Shown here: in pieces, positions 23,791 to 45,064 of the stretch
How positions within the stretch are numbered: position 1 is the stretch's first letter
Layout of the letters: every line of letters begins with the position of its first letter
NCBI RefSeq assembly: GCF_039522665.1
Contig: NZ_BAAADV010000001.1
Span: forward strand, 1,152,046-1,216,045
Source: Natronoarchaeum mannanilyticum
Lineage (GTDB): Archaea > Halobacteriota > Halobacteria > Halobacteriales > Natronoarchaeaceae
DNA length: 64,000 nucleotides
Direction of reading: 5' to 3'
Notes under the pieces: generated by a model
What the model saw: the letters and a program-made list of their open reading frames with translations, nothing else
Database searches by the model: none
Told to the model about the DNA's origin: nothing
Position numbers and translations under genes: made by a program

Positions 23791-24432
23791 TTATCCGAAG
23801 TACTCCGCGATCTTGTCGTACACTTCGTCCATGTTGTCGCCCTCCAGCGCCGAGAGCTCGACCGTCTCGTGCTGCGGGAAGGCGTTCGCGATCTGCTGGA
23901 CGCTCGAATCCTCCAGGTCGATCTTGTTCGCGAAGATCAACACCGGCAGGTCCTGGCTCTCGATGATGCCGACCAGCATGGTGTTGACCTGCGTGAACGG
24001 ATCCTGCGTGCTGTCTAACACGTAGATCACGCCGTCGACGTCCTCGCGGAGCCAGTGCATCGCCTCGGCGACGCCTTCGGTGGCTTCGCGAGATCGTCGC
24101 ACGGCGTCGTCCTCTTCCATGTCGTAGTCGAGGAACTCCTCGTAGTCGACCTTCGTCGTCACGCCCGGCGTGTCGACGATGTCGATGGTCACCGAGCGGC
24201 CGTTGCGTTCGATCTCGACGTTCTCCTTGCGGCGCGCGCGGCGCGTCTCGTGTGGCACGTGGCTCTCGGGGCCGACGGCGTCGCCGGTCCAGTCCCGGGC
24301 GATCCGGTTGGCCAGCGTCGTCTTGCCCGCGTTGGGCGGCCCGTAGATGCCGATCCGCTTCTGTTCGTCGTCGGAGAAGAGTCGGTCCGTCACCCGCGAT
24401 ATACTATCTTTGAGTCCTGTGAACAGTCCCAT
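23791..24432 (-). CDS. oapA: Origin-associated Era-like GTPase OapA
   Basis: A 213-residue TRAFAC-class GTPase. Motifs: G1 GPPNAGKTTL (about residues 35-44), G3 DTPGV (about residue 97), G4 NKID (about residue 170), and effector region around HVPHETRRARRKENVEIERNG. The start ATG at 24430-24432 (MGLFTGLKDSISRV) is preferred over one five codons upstream. The N-terminal 25 residues are an amphipathic helix that may contact membrane or partner. First gene of the oapA-oapB-oapC operon that diverges from orc1 across oriC. Confidence 0.88.
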   Translation of the reverse strand: MGLFTGLKDSISRVTDRLFSDDEQKRIGIYGPPNAGKTTLANRIARDWTGDAVGPESHVPHETRRARRKENVEIERNGRSVTIDIVDTPGVTTKVDYEEFLDYDMEEDDAVRRSREATEGVAEAMHWLREDVDGVIYVLDSTQDPFTQVNTMLVGIIESQDLPVLIFANKIDLEDSSVQQIANAFPQHETVELSALEGDNMDEVYDKIAEYFG

Positions 24433-24745
24433 CCTGTCACCCCGCACCCGCGCGTGGGCTAGGTGCTATGGCGGACAAGGAGCCCCATGCTACTTAAGCC
24501 TACGTCAGACACCCATATTATTGGATACACTTGCGCCGCTGATTGTTTTTCGTTGCTACTTGCTCGAATCAGTGCACGGACGGTGGGCAGCCGTTCTACG
24601 TCGGCTGTGCTGTCCCGCCACGAGACCGATGGGACAGGCTCAGTGTCGTAGATAGCGAGAACCCGTAAAGTGAGTCACCGGTCATCGAGATGCTCGTGGC
24701 GTGTTACCAGGCAGCTTGATCGGGAGCTCGTCCGCCCGTGGTGAG

Positions 24746-24774
24746 GCCCCCACCCCTTCGTTTCGTGTGGAACA
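24746..24774 (-). repeat. Origin recognition box ORB-L (with G-string)
   Basis: On the minus strand it reads GTGTTCCACACGAAACGAAG then GGGTGGGGG, the haloarchaeal ORB with its halophile-specific G-string. It is identical over 29 nt to the plus-strand element at 24984 and faces it. Confidence 0.88.
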
Positions 24775-24839
24775 CGAGAAGGGCGGGTGGGGAGGGGCCG
24801 TCTGGCGGGAGAAATCACGTCACCGGTTCGCACGTTTCC

Positions 24840-24960
24840 TGCGTTTGTCTAGTTTATAACTAGATGAATACATACGATACTAGCTATCTCTCTAGTTTGC
24901 GGATACTGTTTCTGAGCAGAGGTGATAAAGATTCGGCTAGCTAGAAGCCTTGCTGGATCT
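24840..24960. other. AT-rich unwinding element with clustered CTAG
   Basis: The AT-rich stretch between the two strong ORBs is the likely duplex unwinding element. It contains six CTAG tetranucleotides at 24849, 24860, 24880, 24892, 24937 and 24941. It also contains the inverted repeat CTAGTT-tat-AACTAG at 24849-24863. Confidence 0.75.
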
Positions 24961-24983
24961 CTCATCCCCTCCCCGGTCATTTC

Positions 24984-25014
24984 GTGTTCCACACGAAACG
25001 AAGGGGTGGGGGGG
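24984..25014 (+). repeat. Origin recognition box ORB-R (with G-string)
   Basis: GTGTTCCACACGAAACGAAG followed by gggtggggggg, inverted partner of the element at 24746-24774. The spacing between the pair is about 210 bp. Confidence 0.88.
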
Positions 25015-25032
25015 TTCGGGCCGTTCCCGCCA

Positions 25033-25055
25033 CAACCCCCCCCATTTCAGGTGGA
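25033..25055 (-). repeat. Degenerate ORB
   Basis: On the minus strand GTCCACCTGAAATGGGGGGG keeps TCCAC, GAAA and the G-run but has lost the CG of GAAACG. Confidence 0.45.
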
Positions 25056-25170
25056 CGCCTCCCCCCGCGAGTCGTCAGTTCGAACTTCACCGGATCGCGA
25101 TCGCGAACTGCTCGTCGAGTTCGATGACATATCGTCAAAATCCAGAGGGTCGGTAGACCAGGTGTTCGGT

Positions 25171-25194
25171 GCAACCCCTCCGTTTCGACTGGAG
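25171..25194 (-). repeat. ORB element
   Basis: On the minus strand CTCCAGTCGAAACGGAGGGG then ttgc, a good match to the archaeal ORB (TCCAGTxGAAACxxAGGGG). Confidence 0.75.
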
Positions 25195-25665
25195 ATCCGC
25201 AGTACGACTTCCGAAACGTGCTCGCCACCAGCTCTCCAACCGGTCTCATCACGACGCCGCCGATGCTGAAGCGGAACGATACTAAAACAGAATGACTTGT
25301 TGTCCGTTCGCTCTTTTCCGACGAGATGCACCTGATCGAAACTCGGCGTTCATCGTCCGAAGGTCGATCCCCAGCGGACATCCGAATCAGGTGACGATCG
25401 GCCCCGGCCAGACGATCAAACGACTGGCCAGTCGTGGGTCCCGAGGACATCCCAGTCGTCGAAGATACGAGCACGCCCCGCACGGCCGCGTTCGAACCCC
25501 TAGCCCGAGCTTTCCCGTCGTACGATACGGACTAGAGGGAAGAATTTAAGACCCTCGTCGACCTTTGCTTCGTCTGCATCAACTGGACGCACCCGATAGC
25601 ATTCCGACGCGTATTTACGCTCGTCACGTCGTGTGACGCCGGTTTCGCAGTCTCCGTGGGTGTCC

Positions 25666-25701: not shown

Positions 25702-27192
25702 ATGGCCGACAACGACACCACTCCCGACGACGCTCCGGACCCCGGCGATAGCCCGCGGTCGTTCGACGTCGACCTCGACGAAGTCGTCCTCGACGACGAG
25801 GAGGAAGACAGTCAGGGGCTGTTCGACGATCTGCTCGACAGCGAACCGATCTTCGAGAACAAGGAGGTTCTGCGACCGTCGTACACGCCCCACGAGCTTC
25901 CGCACCGCAAAGAGCAGATCAACAAGATGGCGACGATCCTCGTCGCCGCGCTCCGGGGCGAGACGCCCTCGAACATACTCATCTACGGGAAGACAGGGAC
26001 GGGCAAGACCGCGAGCGCGAAGTTCGTCAGTCAGGAACTCGAGAGCACCTCGGAGAAGTACCAGGTCCCCTGCAACGTCGAGTACATCAACTGCGAGGTG
26101 ACCGACACCCAGTACCGCGTGCTCGCGCAACTGGCCAACAAGTTCATCGAAAAGAACGAGGCGTTCGTCGACGAGCGCCTCGGCGAACTCCGGGATCTGC
26201 GCGACGCCGCCGAGGACGACCGATCGGCGCTCGACGACGCCGAGTTCGCCACGGTCGAGGCCGTCGAGGACCGGATCGACGAACTGGTCGACGACCGCGA
26301 GGAGATGGAGCAGGTGCCGATGACGGGGTGGCCGACCGACCGCGTGTACAGCGTCTTCTTCGACGCCGTCGACTACCGCGAGCGCGTCGTCGTGATCATG
26401 CTCGACGAGATCGACAAGCTCGTCGAGAAGTCGGGCGACGACACCCTCTACAATCTCTCGCGGATGAACTCCGAGCTCGACAACTCGCGCGTGTCGATCA
26501 TGGGGATCAGCAACGACCTGAAGTTCACCGACTTCCTCGACCCCCGCGTCAAGTCCAGCCTCGGCGAGGAGGAGATCGTGTTCCCGCCGTACGACGCAAA
26601 CCAGCTGCGCGACATCCTCCAGCACCGCTCGGACGTGGCGTTCAAGGTCGACGCGCTGACCGACGACGTGATCCCGCTGTGTGCCGCCTTCGCCGCCCAG
26701 GAACACGGGGACGCGCGACGTGCGCTCGATCTCCTCAGGACCGCCGGCGAGCTCGCCGAGCGCGACCAGTCCGAGAAAGTTCTCGAGGAGCACGTCCGAC
26801 AGGCCCAGGACAAGATCGAGCTCGACCGCGTCGTCGAGGTCGTCCGCACACTCCCGACCCAGTCGAAGCTCGTGCTCTTCTCGATCATCCTCCTCGAGAA
26901 GAACGGCGTCCACAACGTCAACACCGGCGAGGTGTACAACATCTACAAGACGCTCTGCGAGGAGATCGACGCCGACGTGCTCACCCAGCGCCGCGTCACC
27001 GACCTGATCAGCGAACTCGACATGCTCGGCATCGTCAACGCCGTCGTCGTCTCGAAGGGCCGGTACGGCCGCACCAAGGAGATCAGCCTCTCGGTCCCGA
27101 TCGACGAGACCGAGGCCGTGTTGCTATCGGACTCCCGGCTCGGCGCCATCGAGGACGTCCAGCCGTTCGTTCAGGCGCGCTTCGACAACTGA
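25702..27192 (+). CDS. orc1: Origin recognition protein Orc1/Cdc6
   Basis: AAA+ initiator that binds ORBs and helps load MCM. The 496-residue protein has an acidic N-terminal tail, then FENKEVLRPSYTPHELPHRKEQI, Walker A LIYGKTGTGKTASAKF (about residues 92-107), Walker B VVIMLDEIDKLVEKSG (about residue 231), sensor 1 IMGISNDL, sensor 2 EHGDARRALDLLRTAGELAER, and a C-terminal winged helix (residues about 380-496, ending in EISLSVPIDETEAVLL...). There is an insertion of about 60 residues between Walker A and B (DLRDAAEDDRSALDDAEF...), which is highly acidic. The origin with its ORBs lies immediately upstream, as for haloarchaeal Orc1-1/OrcA-type initiators. Confidence 0.97.
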   Translation: MADNDTTPDDAPDPGDSPRSFDVDLDEVVLDDEEEDSQGLFDDLLDSEPIFENKEVLRPSYTPHELPHRKEQINKMATILVAALRGETPSNILIYGKTGTGKTASAKFVSQELESTSEKYQVPCNVEYINCEVTDTQYRVLAQLANKFIEKNEAFVDERLGELRDLRDAAEDDRSALDDAEFATVEAVEDRIDELVDDREEMEQVPMTGWPTDRVYSVFFDAVDYRERVVVIMLDEIDKLVEKSGDDTLYNLSRMNSELDNSRVSIMGISNDLKFTDFLDPRVKSSLGEEEIVFPPYDANQLRDILQHRSDVAFKVDALTDDVIPLCAAFAAQEHGDARRALDLLRTAGELAERDQSEKVLEEHVRQAQDKIELDRVVEVVRTLPTQSKLVLFSIILLEKNGVHNVNTGEVYNIYKTLCEEIDADVLTQRRVTDLISELDMLGIVNAVVVSKGRYGRTKEISLSVPIDETEAVLLSDSRLGAIEDVQPFVQARFDN

Positions 27193-40474: not shown

Positions 40475-40557
40475 GGCCGGTCACCTCCGCGCTCCGTTGC
40501 TTGACCTCCACTCTCCGTCGCCTGCGAGTCCCAGCATCCCGCTCCCCCCGCAGTCAT
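40471..40557 (-). CDS. Possible 28-residue coupling ORF
   Basis: An ORF of 28 codons starts with ATG overlapping the stop of the upstream PEP-hydrolase-like gene (ATGA) and stops with TGA overlapping the ATG of the Tm-1-like gene (ATGA). It exactly fills the junction. The peptide (MTAGGAGCWDSQATESGG...) is unlike any known fold. It may carry terminating ribosomes across the gap to the next start. Confidence 0.35.
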   Translation of the reverse strand: MTAGGAGCWDSQATESGGQATERGGDRP

Positions 40558-41387
40558 AGGTCGATCTCCTTGAACTCGCGGGCCTGGTTCTCGATCGCTT
40601 CCTCCGTCGGCAGCCGTTCGATGCTCGACGCCCCGAAGAACCCGACAACGCCCTCGGTGTTCTGGAGGACGTGCCGGGCGTCGTCGGGCCACGCGATCGG
40701 GCCGCCGTGACAGATCACCATGACGTCCTCGTTTACCTCCTTGGCGGCGTCGTGGTGTGCCTGGACGCGCTCGGCCGCCTCGTCGAGGTCGAGCGCCGTC
40801 TCGGCGCCGATGTCGCCCGAGGTCGTCAGCCCCATGTGCGAGACGATCACGTCGGCGCCCGCCTCGGCCATCCGCCGGGCGTGCTCCTCGCTGAAGACGT
40901 ACGGACACGTCAACATCCCCTGCTCGCTGGCCTCGCGGATCATCTCGACCTCCTCGTCGTACCCCATCCCGGTCTCCTCGAGGTTCTGCCGGAACTGGCT
41001 GTCCTCGTCGATCAGCCCCACCGTCGGGAAGTTCTGGACGCCGGAAAAGCCGCGTCGCCGCAGGTCCTCGATGAACACGCTCATGTCCCGGAACGGGTCG
41101 GTACCGTTGACGCCCGCGAGCACCGGCGTGTCCTCGACCACCGGGAGCACCTCGTGGCCCATCTCGACGACGATCTCGTTGGCGTCGCCGTAGGGCAGCA
41201 GGCCCGCCAGCGAGCCCCGACCGTTCATCCGGTAGCGCCCGGAGTTGTAGATGATCAGCAGGTCGACGCCGCCGCGCTCGGCGAACTTCGCCGAGATGCC
41301 CGTTCCCGCGCCGGCGCCGACGATCGGGTCGCCGTTCTCGACCGATTCCTCGAGTCGTGTCAGTGATTCTTCTCGGGTGAACTTCAT
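40554..41387 (-). CDS. Phosphoenolpyruvate hydrolase-like TIM-barrel protein
   Basis: A 277-residue protein: GDPIVGAGAGTGISAKFAERGGVDLLIIYNSGRYRMNGRGSLAGLLPYGDANEIVVEMG, LPVVEDTPVLAGVNGTDPFRDMSVFIEDLRRRGFSGVQNFPTVGLID, EEHARRMAEAGADVIVSHMGLTTSGDIGA, and VMVICHGGPIAWPDDARHVLQ. This is the family (PEP hydrolase-like/TIM barrel) usually fused to or paired with UPF0261 proteins, as in tomato Tm-1. The start ATG 41385-41387 is chosen since a TATA-like tagttatatg lies 20-30 nt upstream. Its substrate is not known. Confidence 0.92.
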   Translation of the reverse strand: MKFTREESLTRLEESVENGDPIVGAGAGTGISAKFAERGGVDLLIIYNSGRYRMNGRGSLAGLLPYGDANEIVVEMGHEVLPVVEDTPVLAGVNGTDPFRDMSVFIEDLRRRGFSGVQNFPTVGLIDEDSQFRQNLEETGMGYDEEVEMIREASEQGMLTCPYVFSEEHARRMAEAGADVIVSHMGLTTSGDIGAETALDLDEAAERVQAHHDAAKEVNEDVMVICHGGPIAWPDDARHVLQNTEGVVGFFGASSIERLPTEEAIENQAREFKEIDL

Positions 41388-41453
41388 GCGACGTTTGATA
41401 TCACGTCTCATATAACTAAGAACGTCGGGGGTGAGGCGGCGCGGTCGAGCCGA

Positions 41454-41975
41454 TCACGGCGGCCAGCCGAACACGCCGGCGTCGTAGGAATCGACGTCCG
41501 CGGGCGACTCCAGGACGACGACCTCGAACGACCACTCCGTGCCGGCACTCAGATCGCTCGTCGAGGCGAGGTACGTCCCCAGGTGCGCGCCGTTCTCGCC
41601 GTAGAACCGGGTGCGGACCTCCGCGTACTCGATCAGCTGCTCGGCGTCGTTGCGGACGCTTCCCTGAACGGTGAGCCCCTTGTACCCGCCCGCGTTGGCC
41701 GGTTCGTGTTCGACGAGTTCCAGCGCCTGCACGGTCGTCGCGTCCGGGTCGGGCGTCGTCGAGGCGAACGCCCGCTGCGTGCTCGCGTTCGTCGCGTTCT
41801 CGAGGCTGCCGTTGCCAGAGACGGCGACCTCGTTCTGGGGGCCGTACGCGGTGCCGCCGTCGCCGCCGAGACAGCCCGCGATCCCCGCGATCCCGCCGGC
41901 TCCGACCAGCTGCAACACTCGCCGCCGCGTCGGATCTTCGCCCGCCGCCCCCTCGCCCGTCGCGTCGCTCTCCAT
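41454..41975 (-). CDS. Tat-exported lipoprotein with FxLYD-like domain
   Basis: A 173-residue protein with a twin-arginine signal (RRRVLQLVGAGGIAGIAGC) and a lipobox GIAGC, so it is exported folded and lipid-anchored at the outer face. The mature domain (GGYKGLTVQGSVRNDAEQLIEYAEVRTRFYGENGAHLGTYLASTSDLSAGTEWSFEVVV) reads as an FxLYD beta-sandwich, often involved in substrate or protein binding at the surface. The ATG at 41973-41975 is chosen because it puts the twin-arginine at residue 17-19. No neighbour suggests a partner. Confidence 0.85.
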   Translation of the reverse strand: MESDATGEGAAGEDPTRRRVLQLVGAGGIAGIAGCLGGDGGTAYGPQNEVAVSGNGSLENATNASTQRAFASTTPDPDATTVQALELVEHEPANAGGYKGLTVQGSVRNDAEQLIEYAEVRTRFYGENGAHLGTYLASTSDLSAGTEWSFEVVVLESPADVDSYDAGVFGWPP

Positions 41976-42076
41976 ACCGTCTGGTAGACCGCGGGCTGCC
42001 AAGTGCGTTGGTCACAGTCGGTTGCGACGTAGTTACCGACGCCCTCGCGGCGCGCTACGCGCTCTCGCTCGGCACG

Positions 42077-43123
42077 CTACGCGTCCTCGAACGGGCGGTG
42101 GGTCGCCCGGTACCCCTCGTCGGTCGGTTCCACGTCCTCGACGACGCGCAGGCGGATGTTGCGCTCCTGTTTCGTCCGCACCGGCACGTCGTAGTGAGTC
42201 GCCTCGTACCCCAGCGAGCCGCCGTCGGCGCGCTCGCGCTCGACGAACTCGCGGTGAGCCGCGAGCCGGTCGGCCGCGACGCGCTCGGAGATCGCCGGCG
42301 CCTCGGCGACCCGCTCCTCGAAGGCGCGGACGAACTCGGGTTCGATCTCGACGCCGACCGAGTTCCGGCCGGCGATCATCGCGGCCAGCGTCGTCGTGCC
42401 CGTACCCCAGAACGGGTCCAGAACGGTGTCGCCGTACGCCGAGTACATGTTGACGAGCCGGTAAGGGATCTCGAAGGGGTAGGCCGCCGAGCGGTCCCGG
42501 AGCTCTTCGCCCGCCAGCGCCTGGTGCTCGCCCCGGACCTCCTTCCAGACGTCCGAGAACCATTGGTTGCGCTCCTCCCAGAAGTACGCGGCCTCGTAAC
42601 GCCGGTCGGCGCCGGGCTCGAAGCTCCGACTCTTCGATCCGTTCCGGAAGACGAGGACGTACTCGTGTTCGAGCGTGACGTAGGCGTTGGGCGGCACCAT
42701 CCCCGAGCCCATGAACTTCGCGGCGCTGTTGGCCGGCTTGCGCCAGAGCACGTCCGGCAGCGGCTCGAACCCCAGGGATTCGAACGCGTCGATCACCCGG
42801 GCGTGGTTCTGGTAGACGCGGAAGCTGCCGTCGACGGTCCGCGTCGCGTCGCCGACGTTGACGCAGGCGATGCCGCCCTCGACCAGCACGCGCTCGACCT
42901 CCGCCCAGACGGCGTCGAGCGCCTCGTGCATCAGCTCGTAGGCCCGCCGCCCGTCGCCGTCGTCGAGCGCCTCGCCCGCTCCGGGCGCCAGCTCGGCGAA
43001 CAGCTCGTCCCACATCTCGATCATCGGGTACGGCGGCGACGTGACGACGAGTTCGACCGAGTCGTCGTCGAGGTCGCTCAGCTCCCGCGCGTCCCCGACG
43101 ACGATCCGGTGGCGAGTCTCCAT
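42077..43123 (-). CDS. zim: Orphan m4C DNA methyltransferase, probable CTAG-specific (Zim-like)
   Basis: A 348-residue methyltransferase of the beta class. It has the catalytic motif IV TSPPYPMIEMWD (SPPY is typical of N4-cytosine enzymes) near residue 28, the target-recognition region in the middle, and motif I DPFWGTGTTTLAAMIAGRNSVGVEIEPEF at about residues 245-273. The overall sequence resembles the haloarchaeal Zim enzyme that methylates CTAG in Haloferax; the recognition specificity here is inferred, not proven. No restriction endonuclease gene adjoins it, so it is an orphan. It may act in gene or replication control rather than defence. Confidence 0.78.
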   Translation of the reverse strand: METRHRIVVGDARELSDLDDDSVELVVTSPPYPMIEMWDELFAELAPGAGEALDDGDGRRAYELMHEALDAVWAEVERVLVEGGIACVNVGDATRTVDGSFRVYQNHARVIDAFESLGFEPLPDVLWRKPANSAAKFMGSGMVPPNAYVTLEHEYVLVFRNGSKSRSFEPGADRRYEAAYFWEERNQWFSDVWKEVRGEHQALAGEELRDRSAAYPFEIPYRLVNMYSAYGDTVLDPFWGTGTTTLAAMIAGRNSVGVEIEPEFVRAFEERVAEAPAISERVAADRLAAHREFVERERADGGSLGYEATHYDVPVRTKQERNIRLRVVEDVEPTDEGYRATHRPFEDA

Positions 43124-43163: not shown

Positions 43164-43604
43164 TCAGACCGACGCCTCGACGTACTCGACGGCCTCGGCC
43201 GCCGATTCGGCGGCTTCGACGCCCGCCACGTCGTGGGTGCCGAGCCCGGCGACCGGTCGCCCCAGATCGAGCGCGTGGGCGATCTCCGAGAGCGTCCCGG
43301 TCGAGCCGTCGATCGCGATCGCGGCGTCGCCGTTGAGCACGACCAGCACGTTCCGGGCGTTGCCCAGCCCGGTGGCGATCGGCGTCGTGACGTACTCGTT
43401 GGCCGCCCGGCTGTCCTCGCCGGGGAGGACGCCGATCGTCTCGCCACCTTCCTCGCGGGCGCCCCGGCAGACCGCCTCCATGACGCCGGTGCGGCCGCCG
43501 CAGACCACGGTGTGGCCCCGTTGGGCAAGTAGCCTGCCCACGTCGCGTGCCTGCTCGTACTCCGCGTCCGTGATCGTGCCGCCGCCGACGACGCTGACGC
43601 GCAT
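43164..43604 (-). CDS. LOG/lysine-decarboxylase-like Rossmann protein (TIGR00725 type)
   Basis: A 146-residue Rossmann protein: VSVVGGGTITDAEYEQARDVGRLLAQRGHTVVCGGRTGVMEAVCRGAREEGGETIGVLPGEDSRAANEYVTTPIATGLGNARNVLVVLNGDAAIAIDGSTGTLSEIAHALDLGRPVAGLG. It contains the G-G-x-T-G-x-M and P-G-type nucleotide motifs of the LOG family, but the short version lacks several residues of true cytokinin-activating hydrolases. It likely hydrolyses a nucleoside 5'-monophosphate. It lies 40 nt from the methyltransferase gene in the same direction. Confidence 0.85.
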   Translation of the reverse strand: MRVSVVGGGTITDAEYEQARDVGRLLAQRGHTVVCGGRTGVMEAVCRGAREEGGETIGVLPGEDSRAANEYVTTPIATGLGNARNVLVVLNGDAAIAIDGSTGTLSEIAHALDLGRPVAGLGTHDVAGVEAAESAAEAVEYVEASV

Positions 43605-43693
43605 ACTCGCTCGGATTCGGGCCGGCGGGACAAGCGTTTCGGGTGGAGCGCGGCCGCTCGGCGCGGCTGCGGCGTCGCGTACGGCCTCTGCGC

Positions 43694-45064
43694 TCAGTCG
43701 TCGGCGTCTCGCTCGTAGGCCCCGGCTTTCTCCAGTTCGCCGCGACGCCGGAGCACCGACGGCGTCCGGCAGACGCCGGGCGCGCCGGTCACCTGCGGGA
43801 CGGTGCAGTTGTTGCAGCTCTCGCAGGCGACCCGAGTTTCGGCGTCGACGCCGTAGCGAGGGGCGCTGCCGGTGGTCGCGTCCGATTCCAGCAACCGCGC
43901 CGGAAGCCGCGGCTCGGCGTAGAACGGGCGGGCCATCCCGACCGCGTCGGCGGCCGGCTCCTCGCCCGCCTCGCCGAGCAGCCGGTCGATCTGCCCCCGC
44001 TCGCGGACGCCGCCCTCCAGCATGACCGGAACGTCGACGCGCCGGCGCACCCGCCGGCAGAACTCCTCGTTCCACGCCGGCTCGAAGTCGAACCGCCGCT
44101 CCTGCAGCCGGTTGAGCGCCGCCACCGCCCGCGCCCGGTAGCGGCTGCCGAAGGCGTCGGCGTACCCCTCGGCGAACTCGTCGCTCTCCCAGGCGCGCTC
44201 GGGGTACGCGCCGCGGACGATGCTCATGTCCCAGATCACGTTGGTCTCGACCGGCGCGACGGCGTCGAAGCCGTACTCCGCGAGGTGCTCGGCGATCGCG
44301 ACGCCGTCGTCGCGATCGAGATGCCGGCGGACGATCCGCGGCGCGGCCGTCTCGGCGGGCACCTTCGTCAGGAGCGGGACGTCGCCCGCCCGCGTCCGGA
44401 TCTCGTCGTGGACGAGTTCGAGGAAGCGCGTCCGATCCTCCGGCCGCGAGCCGCCGAACTCGTCGTCGCGCCGGTTGTAGAACGGCGAGAGGAACTGCTG
44501 GACGATGCCCATGTTCGCGCCGGCGAGGTGGATCGCGTCGTAGCCCGCCTCGACCGCGCGGGCCGCCGCTTTGCCGAAGTCCGCGGCCAGCCCGTACACT
44601 TCGGCGGTGTCGAGCACGGACGGGTCGAAGGAGACGAGGCCGAGCCGGTCGAGCGCCCGGAGCTGCGCCGGCGGGCGCGACACCGCCAGCTGTTCGAGAT
44701 CGGGGTGGGCCGCCCGGTACTCGCTGTGCCACGTCTCCATCGTCCGCAGGCCGCCGTGCTCCAGCTGGAGCGCGATCCGGGCTCCGTGGTCGTGGATCCG
44801 GTCCGTGAGCCGTCCCAGGCGCTCCACGAACGCCGGATCGTGGACGCGCGACATCCCCGGCGCACCGCGTCCCCCTTCGCCGCGGACGATCGTCGCGCCC
44901 TGACAGAGCAGCCCGGCGCCGGCGTCGGCCGCCGGTTCGAGATCCTCGATCAGCGCGTCGACGGCGTCCGGTCCGTTCCCCGCGCACTCCAGCAGCGGCG
45001 CCCGGTACAGGCGATTCCCCACCGTCTTCCCCCCGAGATCGACCGGCGCCTCCAGGCGTGCCAT
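43694..45064 (-). CDS. NADH:flavin oxidoreductase/old yellow enzyme relative
   Basis: A 456-residue TIM-barrel FMN protein. Seen: LGGKTVGNRLYRAPLLECAGNGPD, the substrate-region VAGYDAIHLAGANMGIVQQFLSPFYNRRDDEFGGSRPEDRTRF, PVMLEGGVRERGQIDRLL, and a cysteine cluster CESCNNC...C (C-x2-C-x2-C-x11-C) near residues 415-432, as in the 2,4-dienoyl-CoA reductase subgroup. The FAD/NADPH domain (about 250 residues) found after this cluster in that subgroup is absent. Its electron source must therefore be another protein. The ATG at 45062-45064 is well supported by the barrel start. Confidence 0.88.
   Translation of the reverse strand: MARLEAPVDLGGKTVGNRLYRAPLLECAGNGPDAVDALIEDLEPAADAGAGLLCQGATIVRGEGGRGAPGMSRVHDPAFVERLGRLTDRIHDHGARIALQLEHGGLRTMETWHSEYRAAHPDLEQLAVSRPPAQLRALDRLGLVSFDPSVLDTAEVYGLAADFGKAAARAVEAGYDAIHLAGANMGIVQQFLSPFYNRRDDEFGGSRPEDRTRFLELVHDEIRTRAGDVPLLTKVPAETAAPRIVRRHLDRDDGVAIAEHLAEYGFDAVAPVETNVIWDMSIVRGAYPERAWESDEFAEGYADAFGSRYRARAVAALNRLQERRFDFEPAWNEEFCRRVRRRVDVPVMLEGGVRERGQIDRLLGEAGEEPAADAVGMARPFYAEPRLPARLLESDATTGSAPRYGVDAETRVACESCNNCTVPQVTGAPGVCRTPSVLRRRGELEKAGAYERDADD

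Follow-up and report, generated by a model that had tools for sequence, protein, structure and literature searches.

CTAG sites in the predicted unwinding element of a putative haloarchaeal orc1-linked origin and their association with lineage-resident Zim-type methyltransferases

How archaea prevent premature re-firing of a replication origin is an open problem. At the locus described here, the tetranucleotide CTAG, scarce in most of the surrounding DNA, is crowded into the unwinding element of a predicted origin. The window analyzed, i.e., the whole 64,000-nucleotide stretch of the Natronoarchaeum mannanilyticum genome (G000), carries on the plus strand the orc1 gene (25702..27192), encoding an ORC1-type initiator of 496 aa (NF001625, 657.6 bits against a cut-off of 501), and on the minus strand a divergent small GTPase gene (23791..24447), which is the left neighbour of the origin. 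Between these genes, the same 20-mer ORB core occurs twice in inverted orientation with its G-string outward, at 24753..24772 (minus strand) and 24987..25006 (plus strand). The inter-ORB stretch of 214 bp (24773..24986; 51% GC) contains the AT-rich predicted unwinding element (DUE); GC content falls to 38% at 24840-24939, and of all 100-bp windows in the 2 kb upstream of orc1, the one poorest in GC is located between the two ORBs. The locus thus shows the features of an oriC1-type origin, namely an adjacent orc1 and inverted halophile G-string ORBs that flank an AT-rich element. The definition of haloarchaeal origins by ORB and G-string is that of PMC3528665 and PMC3936714, the accessible sections of which do not contain the word CTAG.

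Six CTAG sites, all reported by the first-pass annotation and all confirmed in the letters, are located inside this stretch: at 24849..24852, 24860..24863, 24880..24883 and 24892..24895, followed by a tandem pair (24937..24944, with starts at 24937 and 24941) at the right edge of the AT-rich element. For the first two, the sister genome (G258) shows a CTAG at the corresponding alignment position as well. The previously given expectation of about 0.3 sites is an order-0 value (0.35 with the composition of the window, 0.41 with the local one), but fairer dinucleotide shuffles gave 1.7 sites for 24840-24960 (6 observed, p 0.0008) and 1.43 for the 214 bp between the ORBs (6 observed, p 0.0005). 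The excess of CTAG in the predicted unwinding element is real, and it is about 4-fold rather than 20-fold. The claimed avoidance of the word outside the origin was borne out as well, as the whole window contains 26 CTAGs versus 77.4 expected from dinucleotide shuffles, with a rate of 0.27 per kb outside 24400-25600.

Related origins were collected with an Orc1 scan, the best-scoring 80 loci of which were used as a named set. An outward ORB pair was present in 79 of these 80 loci and in the window; the exception, broken by a contig end (L043), was dropped. The lowest-GC 100-bp window was centred between the ORBs in 72 of the 80 loci (the 79 and the window). The ORBs were paired automatically, and a few loci may be mispaired (e.g., L022, with 583 bp); some of the genomes are incomplete assemblies. 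A search for the methyltransferase covered the genomes behind 79 of the 80 loci, and 15 of them gave no match or weak matches only. CTAG was the most over-represented strand-merged 4-mer in the 63 enzyme-positive inter-ORB stretches (186 vs. 62.1 expected, z 17.2), and it was not enriched in the 15 enzyme-less ones (5 vs. 8.2).

At the level of the class, the enzyme was found in 182 of 212 genomes (E 1e-40), and all 30 absences (20 listed and 10 identified by subtraction) fall within one family. Further oriC1 regions were taken from 77 of the 212 genomes, i.e., from 28 of the 30 enzyme-less and 49 of the 182 enzyme-positive ones, nearly all of them members of one family, and every one of the 77 regions has the ORB pair. 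Nineteen of these DUEs were identical to that of a named locus and were dropped, while the 58 distinct ones brought the dataset to 138. The 100 enzyme-positive DUEs (counting L005, whose enzyme is an open frame of 351 aa, and L074, whose genome lay outside the enzyme search) contain 245 CTAGs versus about 91 expected from shuffles summed over groups, and the 38 enzyme-less DUEs contain 14 versus about 22. Origins of relatives do carry CTAG clusters, the lack of which had been named beforehand as evidence against a role for the sites.

The observed/expected ratio reached 3.76 in the Haloarcula-like set (13 DUEs). It was 2.16 in the enzyme-positive (52 DUEs) and 0.14 in the enzyme-less (11 DUEs) Haloferacaceae-like origins, and in Halorubrum 0.86 in the enzyme-less (27 DUEs) and 0.22 in the enzyme-positive (7 DUEs) ones. 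Eight Haloferax oriC1 DUEs hold 15 CTAGs versus about 6 expected; the sister species (G258) has two DUE sites, and five family members have one to four. The A+T richness of the DUE is not the cause of its CTAGs, since AT-rich windows outside the origin avoid the word (16 vs. 45.9). Neither helical phasing of the DUE CTAGs (R at most 0.073 for periods 8-13) nor a larger consensus around them, beyond an A/T preference, was found. The proposal that methylated CTAG offsets a higher GC content gave p 0.018 or 0.35 depending on the definition, with no relation within resident genomes. GATC was also considered as a substitute where the enzyme is missing and was rejected (11 vs. 10.2 in enzyme-less DUEs).

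A candidate for the modifying enzyme is encoded in the same window. The gene at 42077..43123 (minus strand) specifies a protein of 348 aa with a PF01555 match (131.9 bits), an SPPY motif at residue 29 and 72% identity to a Natronomonas pharaonis protein named "CTAG modification methylase" by its source, and its earlier identification as a Zim-type N4-cytosine methyltransferase is upheld; CTAG is its predicted target, judging from these homologues. In the sections of PMC5867850 and PMC2841640 available to us, HVO_0794 (Zim) of Haloferax volcanii is an enzyme of the same family. No other match at E 1e-40 or better exists in the genome of the window, and no Pfam match to a nuclease family was found in the three frames neighbouring the gene. 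Among the neighbours, 43164-44987 (minus strand) encodes a protein whose C-terminal part matches SLOG cluster 4 (PF18306), and 40554-41411 (minus strand) is a phosphoenolpyruvate hydrolase-like gene (PF09370); a 199-aa frame at 41416-42015, considered as a partner of the methyltransferase, is probably no gene. A crude comparison over 41 loci of ten frames of the window, a number of which are probably spurious, yielded no conserved neighbour as a candidate reader; none of the ten recurred beyond the sister genome (2 of 41 loci, the window itself counted).

The first-pass annotation had linked the cluster to the methyltransferase as such, and this holds for the lineage of the enzyme, not for its presence. 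Presence alone had no significant effect in a phylogenetic regression on the Orc1 tree (p 0.40, 79 origins, L074 being left out of the regressions) or in a Haloferacaceae-like set of 45 (p 0.32), and three enzyme-less genomes keep CTAG arrays. The clue towards residency came from the enzyme-positive Halorubrum origins, which lack the cluster. A methyltransferase was termed resident if it is of the lineage's own clade, and transferred if it was likely acquired from another clade. A resident enzyme predicted CTAG density in the phylogenetic regression on the 79 origins with p 5e-5 under a narrow and 2e-4 under a wide definition, both of which were used because "transferred" was defined after the tree had been seen and the inputs of the tree were chosen partly for low CTAG counts. 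Within the Haloferacaceae-like set of 45, the effect of residency had p 2.8e-7 and 1.9e-8 under the two definitions.

In the tree of 40 enzymes, those of four Halorubrum genomes and Halogranum rubrum group with Natronomonas enzymes (97/93), that of Natronocalculus groups with Natronorubrum (95/88), and that of Halalkalirubrum lies nearby in a weak placement (83/61); all seven fall outside two supported clades, the Haloferax type (99/98) and the Halobaculum type (100/99). The seven genomes, which form the narrow transferred set, have 1, 0, 0, 0, 0, 0 and 0 CTAGs in their DUEs, versus 0 to 4 in 17 genomes whose enzyme is of the type native to the family, at least one being present in 16 of them (p 4e-4). 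The Halobellus and Halogeometricum enzymes, added under the wide definition, are also placed outside the family clades, and the corresponding DUEs have 1, 1, 2 and 1 CTAGs. Four resident-enzyme genomes (L005, L026, L034, and L059) are without any DUE CTAG. It is likely that loss of the enzyme is followed by decay of the sites and that an enzyme regained by transfer does not quickly rebuild them; here we assume that the transferred enzymes read CTAG.

One of the sites is conserved in position. In many DUEs, a core ending in an ATAAA-type motif is followed by a CTAG at a distance of about 30-55 bp from the right ORB, and the tandem CTAGs at 24937-24944 of the window are of this right-edge kind. 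Such a site occurs in 43 of the 100 enzyme-positive versus 2 of the 38 enzyme-less origins (p 1e-5; Fisher tests ignore phylogeny). By group, it was found in 30 of 54 origins of the resident set (L074 included), 8 of 28 other enzyme-positive origins, 2 of 4 from Halobellus, 3 of 11 with transferred enzymes and 0 of 3 further enzyme-positive Halorubrum origins. In many enzyme-less Halorubrum origins the rest of the core is kept and A/T-only letters stand at the place of the edge CTAG. An edge CTAG is present in L010, the origin of an enzyme-less MAG with an incomplete assembly.

It should be stressed that a role for CTAG methylation at the origin is not a new idea. It was printed in Blow et al. 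2016 (PMC4752239), the consulted part of which describes CTAG clusters upstream of haloarchaeal orc genes, correlated with an orphan methyltransferase; its running text prints the motif as m4CATG, and the legend of its Fig 6D gives CTAG. Both elements of that description are found here, i.e., a CTAG cluster in non-coding DNA upstream of orc and a methyltransferase of the family in the same genome. As far as this part of the paper goes, the motif, the genes, the kind of enzyme, the correlation with enzyme presence and the occurrence of clusters at several orc genes per genome are alike, whereas the clusters were placed upstream of orc genes there and are placed between inverted ORBs here. New relative to the same text are the position-conserved right-edge site and the residency of the enzyme, rather than its presence, as the predictor. 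No earlier report of CTAG sites between ORBs was found in the open literature, to which our search was confined (subscription papers and preprints lay outside it). Other accessible excerpts bear on the same subject: no growth defect was seen after the Haloferax enzyme had been deleted along with further methylase genes, and a whole-genome plot of Haloferax volcanii gave a high CTAG density at oriC2 only (both PMC5867850); CTAG methylation was lower in low-GC regions (PMC11001535); and what CTAG methylation does and why CTAG is so rare were called open questions (PMC6471742). The available parts of PMC6471742 and PMC5867850 also cover the Dam/GATC/SeqA system at E. coli oriC, which resembles the present case in that a short palindrome is dense in the origin and the methyltransferase is solitary, as that of the window probably is.

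As in the Dam/SeqA system, the origins considered here have a dense putative methylation motif, above chance and conserved in relatives. The two differ in chemistry and machinery, Dam placing m6A on GATC, whereas m4C on CTAG is predicted here together with archaeal Orc1/MCM proteins; and, unlike GATC, CTAG is rare in the genome and found mainly in the AT-rich element. We know of no SeqA-like reader for CTAG. A Dam-like role for CTAG methylation at the origin, in which it would help to set the time at which replication begins, is likely, and the six CTAGs most likely represent a methylation-sensitive part of the unwinding element of the predicted orc1-linked origin, a reading in which we place middling confidence. 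The resident Zim-type enzyme (42077-43123) would put m4C on both strands of each CTAG, and full methylation may ease the opening of the strands; Butkus and colleagues are said to have found, in 1987, that m4C weakens the duplex. Once the fork has passed, the sites would be hemimethylated and, as long as the enzyme lags behind, would resist opening more strongly or be occupied by a putative reader. With CTAG so scarce elsewhere, its density would set the origin apart as a target. Speaking against a strictly methylation-based reading are the arrays at secondary orc genes of three enzyme-less genomes, the significant clusters at just 2 of the 12 orc loci of the window's genome, the resident-enzyme genomes without any DUE CTAG, the two sites of the sister species, the lower CTAG methylation in low-GC regions (PMC11001535) and the growth of the Haloferax deletion strain without a defect (PMC5867850).

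The association with origins extends beyond oriC1. Triple arrays, in which a pair of adjacent CTAGs has a third one within 8 bp, were found at 60 places spread over 49 of the 212 genomes and were examined as 59 stretches of about 3 kb. An orc gene lies within about 1.5 kb in 41 of the 59, versus a chance expectation of about 0.8 (at 11 orc genes per genome), and in 40 of these 41 the CTAGs are densest 96-995 bp upstream of the orc start. Two of the loci without orc (L262 and L263) are very likely oriC1 origins, because their arrays adjoin, at contig ends, the GTPase gene that neighbours oriC1 (87% identity). As controls, arrays of CATG, which are equally rare (45 of 212 genomes), had orc in 0 of 30 loci examined, one per genome, versus 22 of 30 in the first CTAG set, and methyltransferase loci had it in 0 of 40. 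Orc-linked arrays are present in 37 of the 182 enzyme-positive versus 3 of the 30 enzyme-less genomes, without a significant difference (p 0.22); the three are G088, G144, and G273, with a triple array at a secondary orc. Arrays were also seen elsewhere: that of L274, in an enzyme-less genome (G212), is without orc and lies beside a ParA-like ATPase gene, and L289 (G263) has seven CTAGs within about 130 bp, with no orc nearby, beside a MarR-like gene.

The genome of the window itself has 12 orc loci, and just two of them have a significant CTAG cluster. The second (L082:435-532, contig C8) has five CTAGs between inverted ORBs of a different kind (scan p 0.003). Six orc-like genes of the same genome are located on one contig of 75,575 bp (C6; L084, L086, L087, L089, L090, and L091). 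The ORB word of L082 was found in 20 of the 212 genomes, and the stretches seen have at least three CTAGs within 130 bp in 12 of them and at most two in the remaining eight. Nine ORB-anchored loci from several families (L215, L216, L220, L222, L224, L225, L232, L213, and L234) form a second class of origin, in which an ORB is followed, across a short spacer of nearly fixed length, by CTAGs in a tight array and then by a purine tract. These arrays lie beside one ORB rather than inside a pair: a strict count inside the narrowest exact inverted pair of six genomes gave 14 CTAGs versus 7.8 expected, and three of the six had none. Two of the nine loci are from enzyme-less genomes (G273 and G088), the former without any PF01555 match. 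A short repeated word beside an initiator site at a fixed distance is also known from the DnaA-trio, or bacterial basal unwinding system; the second class differs in its palindromic CTAG and archaeal initiator, and its repeats are not known to be bound as single strands.

A wider proposal may be put forward tentatively, being possible rather than probable: dense CTAG would be a general opening module of haloarchaeal Orc1/Cdc6 origins, independently recruited beside unrelated ORBs and marking, as a word rare throughout the chromosome, the places of opening, with m4C from a resident Zim enzyme setting the re-firing interval and with an older, methylation-independent role in opening still visible on secondary replicons. 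The strongest competing explanation, which we consider rather unlikely, makes methylation secondary, CTAG being an intrinsic unwinding or protein-contact word, i.e., short TA-step repeats by the ORB that are opened or held by Orc1/MCM, much in the spirit of the DnaA-trios. The nearly fixed spacing of ORB and array in the nine second-class loci, two of them enzyme-less, argues for it, as do triple arrays at origins of six best-matching Orc paralog types. At oriC1, however, alignment shows scattered sites with fast turnover between sister species, and they are scarcer than expected in origins that lack the enzyme or have one from another clade; the eight genomes with at most two CTAGs at the L082 ORB word in the stretches seen weigh against it as well. 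The CTAG word probably has an intrinsic role in addition to the methylation-sensitive one, since arrays persist at secondary origins of the three enzyme-less genomes.

Regulation of transcription, either of orc genes or from an origin promoter, via CTAG methylation or a CTAG-binding repressor, is improbable. Haloferax lucertense has an excess of CTAG in the 75 bp that precede transcription starts (PMC11001535, as far as its accessible text goes), and two CTAGs of the window, at 25500 (not 25498, as first given) and 25532, are near the orc1 promoter region. The cluster itself, however, is located about 760-850 bp upstream of orc1, between the ORBs, and the stretch from the right ORB to orc1 is poor in CTAG in relatives (36 vs. 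63.2 expected in 63 enzyme-positive loci), which places these two sites and the one at 24459, both 24459 and 25532 being confirmed as reported, outside any conserved cluster.

Still less credit can be given to a passive origin of the cluster, in which biased mutation or repair strips CTAG genome-wide and spares or creates it in the single-stranded, often-opened DNA of the origin. CTAG is indeed depleted nearly everywhere else, and its avoidance in GC-rich windows is alike with and without the enzyme (observed/expected 0.18 and 0.15, respectively), but the DUEs have about three times the shuffle expectation, which is more than relief from avoidance, and enzyme-less lineages with the same AT-rich DUE have no excess. 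That the sites are targets or remnants of mobile elements is very hard to credit, as most of the 138 origins share a single layout and length class of the inter-ORB DUE and no inserted repeats were found in that of the window, even if CTAG is a target of some IS elements according to the available part of PMC6471742.

The methylation hypothesis lends itself to direct tests, given the precise location of the sites in the DUE, the edge site conserved in position, the lineages with a lost or likely replaced enzyme, and a simple array signature by which orc-linked origins can be picked out genome-wide; for such tests Haloferax volcanii is less suitable than, e.g., Haloarcula or Natronomonas, with up to 8 CTAGs per DUE.

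Several minor observations concern the DUEs and the enzymes. CATG is strongly scarce in DUEs (3 vs. 23.6 in the 63 enzyme-positive and 0 vs. 8.3 in the 15 enzyme-less ones), and ACGT is low too. TCGA is enriched in the 15 enzyme-less origins (26 vs. 9.4), partly within a shared GTCGAGGG core. In Halobaculum litoreum (L190, G003), a frameshift or a sequencing error breaks the match to the methyltransferase into two frames (query residues 2-84 and 82-346), and the DUE still has 3 CTAGs. Natronomonas sp. LN261 has two full-length copies of the methyltransferase (L203 and L204), and the oriC1 DUE of the same genome contains 8 CTAGs.
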